Notes under the pieces: generated by a model
Database searches by the model: none
Seen by the model: the letters and a program-made list of their open reading frames with translations, nothing else
What the model was told of the DNA's origin: nothing
Shown here: one piece after another, positions 8,682 through 12,332 of the stretch
How positions within the stretch are numbered: position 1 is the first letter of the stretch
How the letters are laid out: every line of letters begins with the position of its first letter
DNA from: Klebsiella pneumoniae
Lineage (GTDB): Bacteria > Myxococcota_A > UBA796 > GCA-2862545
Direction of reading: 5' to 3'
Length of the DNA: 34,692 nucleotides
Assembly (NCBI GenBank): GCA_945882675.1
Contig: CAMCWU010000006.1
Coordinates: 1-34,692, forward strand
Position numbers and translations under genes: made by a program

Positions 8682-10157
8682 ATGCGGAGCTGGCTCGTGC
8701 TCGGGCTGCTGGCGTGCCGCGGCAAGGACGCCACGGACACCGCAGGCACCCCCCTGACGGACACCGTCCCGGATGGAACCACCGACCCGGCCGGCGCGGA
8801 TGTGGTGTCTGCGGAATGCACGTTAGACCCTGACAATAGCCTCCGCGCCACCTGCAGCGTGGACCTGGACTCTCCGGACGACGTGGAGATCACGTTCCTG
8901 GCGGACGGCGTGGAAGGCATGGTGTTCCGGAGCGCGGTGCCCGCCGCCCGCCACGTCGTCGAGGTCTGGGGGCTCGTCCAGGAGACGGAGTTCCAGTGGG
9001 CGGCCACGCCCGTGGGCAACCCCGCTGGCGGCCAGCAGGGGAGCCTGATCGCCGGCTCCCTCCCGGTGACGCTCGACCGGATGACGGTAGACGTGCAGGC
9101 GCCCGGCCCGCACGGTGACGACGCCGTCCTGCTCAACTACGGCTGCGACACCTTCCAGGAGGCCCTGGTGATCCTCGACCGTGAAGGTCGGGTTCGCTGG
9201 TACCAGGACATCTCGGAGCTCACGGCCCCACCGGGCCCGAAGACGGTGCGCGGGCTGAACATCACGCCGGAGGGCACGATCCTCGCGGTCCTCGACCGGA
9301 CGGCGGTCGTCGAGTACGCGCTCCACGGGACGCTCCTGCTTTACCTGGACGGCGCGGCGTTGGACCATCCCGTCCACCACGACCTGAACCGCTGGAACGA
9401 CCTCACCTATGTCGTCTTCGCCGAGCAGGTGGAGGGCCCGGACGGCCCGACCGTCACGGACGGGTTCTACGTCTTCGACGGCACGGGCACGCGCGTAGCG
9501 GAGTGGCACTCCGCGGACCACATCTCGCCGGTGGACGGCGGATCCGCGGGCGGCGGGTACTGGGCCGACCTGTTCCCGGGCGCCATCGACTGGTCCCACA
9601 CGAACGCGCTCGCGGTCGACCCGGACGGCGGCGTCACGCTCTCGTTGCGGTACCAGTCGGCGCTCGTGCACGTGGTCGGAGACCCGGCGGCCGCGGACTT
9701 TGGCGCGGTCTCCTGGATCCTCGTCGGGGACCCCGAGAAGTCGGTCCTGACGTCGACGCTCGCGTTCGCGTCGAGCACGGGGATCGCGGACGTCGCGTTC
9801 GAGCAGCAGCATCACGTGGCGTCGGTGGCGGGCGGGCTGACTCTCTGGGACAACGGCCGGGAACCCGAGAGCGGGAGCCGCGTGCTCGAGCTGGCGATCA
9901 GCGGCGGCGCGGCGGACGCCGTGCGCGAGTGGCCCGTCGGCGCGTTCTGCCCCGGGCAGGGGAGCGGAACGGTGCTCCGGAGCGGCAATGTGCTCGTGGA
10001 CTGCGCGCCCGCGGACACCATCGCAGAGGTCGACCCGGCCGGCGTGACGCTCTGGAGCGCGTCCGTGTCGTGCGGTCTCGGGATGATGCTCCGGCCGCTC
10101 TACCGGGGGCTGCCGATCGACCTGTTCCCCGCCGCGGGGGCCAGCTCGGTGCCATGA
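8682..10157 (+). CDS. Arylsulfotransferase (ASST)-like lipoprotein
   Basis: In-frame ATG at 8682 with MRSWLVLGLLAC|RGK lipobox. Body has NYGCDTFQEALVILDREGRVRWYQDI, HHDLNRWNDLTYVVFAE, DWSHTNALAVDPDGGVTLSLRYQSALVHV, QQHHVA...LTLWDNG and GSGTVLRSGNVLVDC, consistent with an ASST-type beta-propeller. Confidence 0.7.
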   Translation: MRSWLVLGLLACRGKDATDTAGTPLTDTVPDGTTDPAGADVVSAECTLDPDNSLRATCSVDLDSPDDVEITFLADGVEGMVFRSAVPAARHVVEVWGLVQETEFQWAATPVGNPAGGQQGSLIAGSLPVTLDRMTVDVQAPGPHGDDAVLLNYGCDTFQEALVILDREGRVRWYQDISELTAPPGPKTVRGLNITPEGTILAVLDRTAVVEYALHGTLLLYLDGAALDHPVHHDLNRWNDLTYVVFAEQVEGPDGPTVTDGFYVFDGTGTRVAEWHSADHISPVDGGSAGGGYWADLFPGAIDWSHTNALAVDPDGGVTLSLRYQSALVHVVGDPAAADFGAVSWILVGDPEKSVLTSTLAFASSTGIADVAFEQQHHVASVAGGLTLWDNGREPESGSRVLELAISGGAADAVREWPVGAFCPGQGSGTVLRSGNVLVDCAPADTIAEVDPAGVTLWSASVSCGLGMMLRPLYRGLPIDLFPAAGASSVP

Positions 10158-11008
10158 CGGGGTTCCGTGACCGCGTGGATGCGCTGCCGCGCCTCGGGCT
10201 CGGGATATCGACGGAGTACGGCGTGGGTGCGCACGGGGTAGATCCGCTCGCGCTGCACCGGCGTCGGCCCGACCTGATCCGCTTCCTGGAGGTCGGCGCG
10301 GACCTGGAGCGCGGGGTGGACGGCCCGACGGACGCGTGGGTGGCCGCGGGCCTGCCGACGACCTGGCACTTCCTGGACATCAACCTCGAGGATCCCGCAG
10401 ACCGGGACCTCGCGTGGGCCGACGACGCGGCCGCGCTCGCGCGGCGGTGCGGTGCGGCGTGGATGTGCGGGGACGCCGGGCGCTGGCGCGTCGGCCCGCG
10501 GGACCGCGGCCACGGGGTGCTCCTGCCGCCCATTTTATGCCGGGAGTCGGCGGAGATCCTGGCGGACAGCGTGACCTGGCTCCGAGACGCCACGGGCCTG
10601 GAGGTCCTGCCGGAGAACCCGCCCGCCCACGTGTTCCTGGGCGACATGCATATCCTCGACTACTTCGCAGTGGTGGCGGAGCGCGCCGATTGCGGGCTGC
10701 TGCTCGACGTCGCACACCTGGCGATCGCACAGCGCGTGGCGGGGCGCGGACCGCTCGACGGCCTCGACGGCTTCCCGCTCGACCGAGTGGTGGAGGTCCA
10801 CGTGGCGGGGGGCCGGGAGATCCGGGTCCGCGGCCGCACGTTCGTGGAGGACGATCACGGCCCGCACCCGCTAACGGACACGTGGGAGATCTTCCGGCAC
10901 GTCGTGGAGCGGGCGCCGAACCTGAGGGCCGTCGTGGTGGAGTGCGAGCGGAACCCGCCGGCGGTAGTGATCCCGCTGTTCGAGCGGGTCGCGCAGGTCT
11001 GGGCGTGA
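10154..11008 (+). CDS. DUF692 / MNIO family (multinuclear non-heme iron-dependent oxidase-like) protein
   Basis: ATGA overlap with the upstream gene. GLGISTEYGVGAH, RFLEVGAD, TWHFLDINLED, LEVLPENPPAHVFLGDMHILDYFAVVAERADCGLLLDVAHLAI, VVEVHVAGG, VEDDHGPHPLTDTW and AVVVECERN match DUF692 positions. Confidence 0.8.
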   Translation: MTGFRDRVDALPRLGLGISTEYGVGAHGVDPLALHRRRPDLIRFLEVGADLERGVDGPTDAWVAAGLPTTWHFLDINLEDPADRDLAWADDAAALARRCGAAWMCGDAGRWRVGPRDRGHGVLLPPILCRESAEILADSVTWLRDATGLEVLPENPPAHVFLGDMHILDYFAVVAERADCGLLLDVAHLAIAQRVAGRGPLDGLDGFPLDRVVEVHVAGGREIRVRGRTFVEDDHGPHPLTDTWEIFRHVVERAPNLRAVVVECERNPPAVVIPLFERVAQVWA

Positions 11009-11793
11009 GCGCGGACGTCGACGGGTGTCAGCGCGCGGCATTCCGGATGCAGCTCGATCCGGCGTTCGCCGCCCGTATCCTCGACGGGGACGTGGCGGCG
11101 ATCGCGTCGACGGGCCTCGGGCCGCGCGAGATCGCGTGGCTGCGCGCAACGGACCGCGCGGCCTGGCTGGCCGAGCCGCGGCGGCGCGAGCAGGTGATCG
11201 GGAACATCGCGGGGGAGTTCGCGCTCACTGCGGCCCTGGCGCCGAAGGTCCGGCTGGACCGGTTCCTGGGCACCGACGGGATGCACGCGGCCATCGCCGG
11301 AGATCGGAGCCTCCCGCTCGCGTTCGCGGAGTGGCTGGTCCCGCTGGTGCCCCCGTCCGCCCGCCCGGTGGCGACCCTGGAGGCGGAGATGGCGCGCGCC
11401 CGGCGGCTGCAGGACCCGCGGCCGGACGCGGAGATCCGCCTCGCTCGCGGGGCGCGGATGGTGACGCTCCCGGGGGGGACGGTAGCGTACGCGGCCGACC
11501 TCCGGGTGGCGCTGGATGCGCGCGCGTCGCCGCCGCCGCGCCCCGTCGCAAGGCCCGACGCCCTCGTCGTGCTGGCTCCGCGCCCCACGCGCCGCTGGAC
11601 CCTCCCCGAGGTCGCCGTGGAGGAGGTGGGTGGCGCCGTCGCGGCCGTGATCCTCGCATCCCGCGACGGGATCCGGCGCGCCGACTTCGCCGTGCTCGCT
11701 GCCGCCTGGGAGGCGGGTCCAGGGGATGTCGAACGGGTCGTCGACGAGCTGGTGGCCGACGGGTATCTGGAAACGAACGCCCCGATCGGGTAG
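11005..11793 (+). CDS. Uncharacterised MNIO partner-like protein with a possible C-terminal winged-helix-like region
   Basis: GTGA overlap with the MNIO gene. N-terminal region AFRMQLDPAFAARILDGDVAAIASTGLGPREIAWLRATDRAAWLAEPRRREQVIGNIAGEF; C-terminal DGIRRADFAVLAAAWEAGPGDVERVVDELVADGYLETN. Confidence 0.7.
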   Translation: MSADVDGCQRAAFRMQLDPAFAARILDGDVAAIASTGLGPREIAWLRATDRAAWLAEPRRREQVIGNIAGEFALTAALAPKVRLDRFLGTDGMHAAIAGDRSLPLAFAEWLVPLVPPSARPVATLEAEMARARRLQDPRPDAEIRLARGARMVTLPGGTVAYAADLRVALDARASPPPRPVARPDALVVLAPRPTRRWTLPEVAVEEVGGAVAAVILASRDGIRRADFAVLAAAWEAGPGDVERVVDELVADGYLETNAPIG

Positions 11794-11804: not shown

Positions 11805-12332
11805 ATGCCGAACGACCTCAGCGCAACGCTCCAGCTCCTCCCGATCTTCAACCTCCTCCGTCCAGAGGAGGTCGAGCGCATCACGGAAGTCGGCCGGGTC
11901 GAGTACTGGCAGGAAGGCGCGCTCGTCCTGGAGGAGCGCGCCGTCGGCCCCAGGATGATGGTAGTGCTGGAAGGCAGGGTAGAGGTCCTGCGGCGCGACA
12001 AGGCCGGCGTGCAGCGCGCCATCGCCGAGCTCGGCCCAGGCGAGATCCTCGGGGAGATGAGCCTCCTCCTGGAGCTCCCGCGCTCGGCCACCGTGCGCGC
12101 CGTGACCCCCCTTCGCGTATTCGCCATGGACCAAGCGGCGTTCCAAGAGCTCGTCGATCAGGACGACCCCGCGACGCTGAAGCTCGGCCTCGCGCTCTCG
12201 CGCATCCTCGCCATGCGCCTGATGCGCCTCAACGACCGGGTCCTCGACCTGCTCGGCCAGGCAGAGGGCGGCGTCCGCGAGCGCTTCCACGAAGCCCGCC
12301 AGGAGATCTTCAACCTGTGGGACGAGGGCTGA
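11805..12332 (+). CDS. Cyclic nucleotide-binding (CNB/cNMP) domain protein
   Basis: MPNDLSATLQLLPIFNLLRPEEVERITEVGRVEYWQEGALVLEERAVGPRMMVVLEGRVEVLR...LGPGEILGEMSLLLELPRSATVRAVTPLRVFAMDQAAF. Confidence 0.9.
   Translation: MPNDLSATLQLLPIFNLLRPEEVERITEVGRVEYWQEGALVLEERAVGPRMMVVLEGRVEVLRRDKAGVQRAIAELGPGEILGEMSLLLELPRSATVRAVTPLRVFAMDQAAFQELVDQDDPATLKLGLALSRILAMRLMRLNDRVLDLLGQAEGGVRERFHEARQEIFNLWDEG

Follow-up and report, generated by a model that had tools for sequence, protein, structure and literature searches.

An obligate pair of MNIO and partner protein with exchanged metal ligands and no linked precursor gene in several bacterial phyla

Introduction

TglH of the pearlin (3-thiaglutamate) pathway is a TIM-barrel MNIO (DUF692) enzyme that goes with a two-domain partner, TglI, and its iron ligands are His71, His107, Glu151, Asp184, Asn187, His216, Asp229, His231, and Glu258 (PMC10880893). 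Equivalent iron ligands, including Asn168, are present in VcMbnB (PMC8888699). In bufferin and oxazolin clusters (BufABC and HvfABC), a Cys-rich precursor is encoded ahead of the MNIO, which is followed by a DUF2063-like partner. Partners of the PME-type 2 class are also already known; as surveyed by Antoine et al. (2025), they combine a DUF2063-like helical domain with an RRE-type domain and are separated from type 1 by the absence of a Pfam DUF2063 match (PMC12452194). MNIOs with altered site-3 residues have likewise been described, PesH and PflD being without the HxD of site 3 and the MNIO-like protein PesX without iron-binding residues (PMC13060819), and the field has yet to settle what the third MNIO iron site does (PMC13419390, PMC13060819).

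Here we compare with these systems an MNIO–partner pair encoded in a 34,692-nucleotide stretch of DNA (the window), which makes up the entire contig C6 in a draft assembly of 3.7 Mb (377 contigs, 81% complete). We consider it likely that the pair is a stand-alone, trans-acting holoenzyme of a divergent MNIO clade, with a rearranged metal centre and no linked precursor. Computation shows that its two proteins are homologous to MNIOs and TglI/DUF2063-type partners, respectively, that they form an obligate pair with no linked precursor, and that two iron ligands are exchanged.

Results

The locus comprises three genes on the forward strand, encoding an ASST-like lipoprotein of 491 aa with the lipobox LLAC (8682..10157; PF05935, E 1.8e-21), an MNIO (DUF692) of 284 aa belonging to a divergent DxxH clade (10154..11008; PF05114, E 1.2e-20), and a TglI/DUF2063-like partner protein of 262 aa with no Pfam match (11005..11793). 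The preliminary description had presented them as a translationally coupled operon, and the three genes and both 4-bp overlaps (ATGA at 10154-10157 and GTGA at 11005-11008) proved real. A codon-model gene caller chose exactly the same starts for all three, and another species of the genus (L033) has both overlaps as well, with 43-63% identity per protein. A fourth gene on the same strand, overlooked at that time, begins 11 bp downstream of the partner gene and encodes a cyclic-nucleotide-binding-domain protein (11805..12332; PF00027, E 9.7e-20). It is also kept in the second species, after a gap of 21 bp, and is probably co-transcribed in the window's genus only. Too little room is left for a precursor gene in the gaps around the genes, which measure 98 bp before the ASST-like gene, 11 bp after the partner gene, and 55 bp downstream of the next gene.

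The MNIO scored 74.4 bits against the PF05114 (MbnB_TglH_ChrH) profile, for which the gathering score is 25, and fell below the NCBIfam equivalog cut-offs for BufB (69.5 of 310 bits) and HvfB (41.9 of 360 bits). The structure prediction that had been suggested for the complex was run for MNIO and partner as a natural fusion (L048, 547 aa), and AF2 returned a single confident unit (pLDDT 95.0, pTM 0.92), the alignment used (A6) having 27 residues out of place at the N-terminus of the partner-only rows. The fusion model contains a TIM barrel of the MbnB/TglH type, its top matches being TglH, 3bww, and MbnB (TM 0.68-0.76 by target), and TglI was matched too. The DxxH motif is familiar from endonuclease IV and sugar epimerases, and by sharing it with these TIM-barrel relatives the protein could be read as no oxidase at all, acting instead on DNA ends or sugars in the manner of endonuclease IV/UVDE or the epimerases. 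APN1, UVDE, and epimerases do appear in the Foldseek list for the fusion model (E 1e-5 to 1e-4). We regard this reading as very unlikely, since they stand behind the MNIOs, which rank first by orders of magnitude in the fold search, and since the obligate partner resembles those of MNIOs.

Taken in the order of the TglH ligands, the counterparts in the window MNIO are H72, none, E154, D185, H188, H216, D233, H235, and E263. Seven of the nine ligands in the set H,H,E,D,N,H,D,H,E of MbnB and TglH are thus kept, and these seven are invariant across the clade. At site 3, the Asn187 of TglH is replaced by His188, within the motif DVAH (residues 185-188; 10706..10717, forward strand). The preliminary description had remarked on this motif and suggested a divergent clade, and both points are borne out: the position is His in 93 of 93 clade members and in 4 of 4 sister sequences, and Asn in 7 of 7 canonical MNIOs, which points to a real change of metal ligands. 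At site 1, the S-D-H segment that carries His107 in TglH is replaced by CGDAGRW (residues 105-111; 10466..10486, forward strand). A segment of this CGDxGxW type (W-x-C-G-D-x-G / C-G-D-x-G-x-W) occurs in 100 of 101 clade members, and the SDH-His column has no His in 92 of 92 clade members and none in four sister members, compared with His in 7 of 7 canonical sequences. Two of the nine ligands are therefore exchanged clade-wide. The SDH segment has a one-residue gap in some alignments, its His lying opposite D107 or A108, and the residue that might replace the lost site-1 His is uncertain from these alignments. Since exchange of the site-3 Asn for Ala abolished activity in HvfB (PMC13419390), the natural Asn-to-His exchange is unlikely to be neutral.

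MNIO-like proteins with altered ligand sets include PesH, PflD, and PesX, from which the clade differs in keeping the D-x-H of site 3 while having His for Asn and lacking the site-1 His. The exchange of two ligands, together with the precedent of PesX as an MNIO-like protein that binds a partner and has no iron residues (PMC13060819), would fit a regulatory pseudo-enzyme engaging its partner without redox chemistry. We think this improbable, because seven ligands are invariant here and a new invariant His has been added, and because every module comes with a partner of its own and no other MNIO to be regulated was detected in eight genomes of the order. A sister MNIO group (L053-L056, from G003, G004, G052, and G050) shows the motifs YHPSxLNLCG, AQD, and DAGH and the same ligand exchange; its partner is adjacent in L054 and fused in L055 and L056, and no obvious precursor was seen alongside.

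To examine the distribution of the pair, neighborhoods were compared at ~100 orthologous loci. Sixty-four genomes of the order yielded 22 close MNIO orthologues, and a scan of genome contigs gave 116 MNIO relatives, the best 80 of which come from records of Myxococcota, Planctomycetota, Acidobacteriota, Eiseniibacteriota, and Krumholzibacteriota. The clade is present in Myxococcota, Planctomycetota, Acidobacteriota, and some candidate phyla, and its MNIO is carried by 40 of the 284 genomes sampled from the window's phylum. Of the loci of the best 80 relatives, two stop at a contig edge, and 75 of the other 78 contain the partner. No partner adjoins the MNIO in L103, L112, and L118; in L106 and L134, the distance between the two is 0.5 to 2.3 kb. 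In the related genomes of L112 and L118, the unpartnered MNIO is followed by a different protein of 228 aa, with a 4-bp overlap. Within the order, the partner occurs beside the clade MNIO only, the one exception being a spurious hit with stop codons.

The spacing between the two genes is -4 in 25 of 44 cases, and in 10 genes, whose spread over the tree requires at least eight state changes, MNIO and partner form one fused chain. MNIO distances correlate with partner distances (r 0.73, p 0.0005), in part through shared species history. The link is very strong by fusions, co-occurrence, and co-variation, and MNIO and partner are an obligate pair. The upstream gene is on the opposite strand in 29 of 69 loci, and the only recurrent neighbors are lineage-specific housekeeping genes such as der, prfB, ribD, and rpmF. 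The clade MNIO is the sole MNIO detected in the eight order genomes mentioned above, and the module is therefore not dependent on a bufferin-type cluster.

The AF2 model of the partner (pLDDT 93.8) shows two domains, an all-helical one at the N-terminus and a winged-helix one behind it. The former spans residues 5-134 (11017..11406, forward strand) as judged by the AF2 helices, and the latter, an RRE-type domain, spans residues 144-257 (11434..11775, forward strand) as judged by AF2 strand and helix order and a full-length alignment with TglI. The best Foldseek match, over the full length, was 8hi7_A (prob 1.00, TM 0.54), which, going by its length, should be TglI from TglHI. Comparison of the partner profile with DUF2063-type partners using hhalign gave 95.6% (E 1.1e-8), and the partner thus combines structural similarity to TglI and DUF2063-RRE proteins with a location beside an MNIO. 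The Pfam families listed for 58 partner members did not include DUF2063 (PF09836), and the protein fits the PME-type 2 class (PMC12452194). Example D of that class, from the myxobacterium Plesiocystis pacifica, may be a relative.

The N-terminal domain of TglI was reported to be without a structural homologue (PMC10880893). In many members of the present partner family, the first ~50 residues (11005-11160 in the window) resemble NHLP/Os17 leader domains and the N-terminus of the nitrile hydratase alpha subunit: NF038399 was matched in 26 of 58 partner members (best E 9.3e-8; the window's own copy fell below the threshold), and the partner family profile matched PDB 6lk7 with E 0.0014. This leader-like N-terminus may point to descent from a leader, or to no more than a helical pattern in common. 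The partner itself was also considered as a Cys-modified substrate, and this was rejected for want of a conserved Cys.

The order of MNIO gene and partner gene is that of BufABC and HvfABC, from which the clade differs in its ligands and in having no Cys-rich precursor ahead of the MNIO; similarly, in contrast to the TglH-TglI system, no tglA-like peptide or PEARL genes are present and the subunits are often fused. A low-stringency all-against-all comparison of short ORFs within -2.5/+3.5 kb of ~70 loci in five or more phyla revealed no recurrent family near the pair, the sole recurrent family being rpmF (ribosomal protein L32) at 4 loci of one lineage. The absence of a linked short precursor, initially noted for this operon, consequently holds both for the gaps in the window and across the ~70 loci, at none of which does a precursor gene stand beside the modifying enzymes as in a RiPP cluster. 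The substrate is therefore encoded elsewhere or is not a dedicated peptide.

A conventional RiPP system with a dedicated small precursor elsewhere in the genome is a narrower form of the holoenzyme reading, in that it names the kind of substrate, and not its opposite. In the structural model, the partner's RRE-type domain resembles those of leader-binding MNIO partners, and unlinked precursors are known for bufferins (PMC12452194). A linked precursor at 0 of ~70 loci would, however, be unusual for a dedicated pair, and Os17/NHLP, the one candidate family tested, fails to track the module. On balance, we treat a dedicated unlinked precursor as a realistic possibility about which we remain somewhat doubtful. 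Stand-alone NHLP/Os17 peptides were found in 16 genomes of the order, only half of which carry the module, and were rejected as the unlinked precursor; no Os17-type short peptide is present in the window's genome. The same genome also contains an oxazolin-like cluster (L052:5465-7480; G000:C45) encoding a 148-aa lipoprotein with NECKGxGGCK, an MNIO that retains SDH and DLNN, and a DUF2063-like partner, and the contrast between a conventional cluster and the clade pair is hence visible inside one genome.

The ASST-like lipoprotein matched the PF05935 profile with 77 bits (threshold 24.2). H233, H306, and H377 are invariant in 15 aligned ASST sequences, comprising the window protein and its paralogues, and R323 is present in 13 of 15; we presume that these are the ASST active-site positions. 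With its likely active-site residues intact, the protein is probably an ordinary secreted sulfotransferase relative. Its gene lies next to the MNIO in G000 and G008 only, that is, in the window's genus, and an ASST profile run over every locus detected no ASST-like ORF near the MNIO outside the genus. In the nearest relatives (L066 and L083), the gene upstream of the MNIO is of another kind, and elsewhere outside the genus it is unrelated or on the other strand. Conversely, close ASST homologues are present in genomes without a clade MNIO, and the family has 14 copies in the window's genome. The family is greatly expanded in the order, with 25 or more copies in several relatives.

The neighborhood comparison proposed for the triplet thus confirmed the MNIO–partner part and confined the ASST part to one genus. 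The ASST-like gene is a genus-specific operon neighbor outside the conserved module, and its candidacy as a conserved partner was rejected, as adjacency is confined to one genus and many homologues occur in genomes without this MNIO; the accidental adjacency that the preliminary description had named as the outcome against its proposal was what we found for this gene. The idea that the pair oxidizes the co-encoded ASST-like protein before export draws on the tight overlaps that two species of the genus share, on Cys 423, 441, and 464, which are conserved in ASST paralogues, and on the discussion of long MNIO substrates in PMC12452194. It is nevertheless scarcely credible, given that no ASST-like ORF adjoins the MNIO outside the genus, that ASST homologues are plentiful in genomes without this MNIO, and that the same Cys residues are found in homologues from those genomes.

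Discussion

Of the initial interpretation, the non-canonical, divergent MNIO–partner system without a linked precursor is retained, and the role assigned to the ASST-like lipoprotein is not. Since the L048 fusion forms one unit matching both TglH and TglI, we favor for the stand-alone holoenzyme the mechanism of the known holoenzymes. MNIO and partner would be two subunits, sometimes fused into one chain, in which the helical domain of the partner may clamp the TIM barrel and its winged-helix domain may recruit a peptide or protein segment, both as in TglI and MbnC. The substrate would be encoded elsewhere, with the partner presenting the segment to the altered multi-metal site. This metal centre is predicted to consist of site 2 (E154, D185, H216, and E263) and a strengthened site 3 (D185, H188, D233, and H235), with site 1 apparently retaining only H72 of its two histidines. 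We offer more tentatively the rather doubtful suggestion that the working metal pair has moved from sites 1 and 2 to sites 2 and 3 and that the enzyme serves, in several phyla, a non-dedicated substrate outside any RiPP cluster, which might be a small molecule or a housekeeping protein.

A clade that exchanges one site-1 and one site-3 ligand provides a natural test of which sites are needed, and the retention of the pair in different phyla, with no peptide gene linked to it, suggests MNIO roles beyond the maturation of cluster-encoded peptides. The natural fusions, such as the 547-aa protein of L048, are ready-made single-chain constructs. We found no description of the clade in the open-licence literature, and an earlier account elsewhere is possible; the part of the PMC12452194 survey consulted describes neither the clade nor its exchanged ligands and recurrent fusions. 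The module is also carried by the public record CAMAXZ010000021.1 (L133), which is titled Klebsiella pneumoniae, a label that looks wrong.
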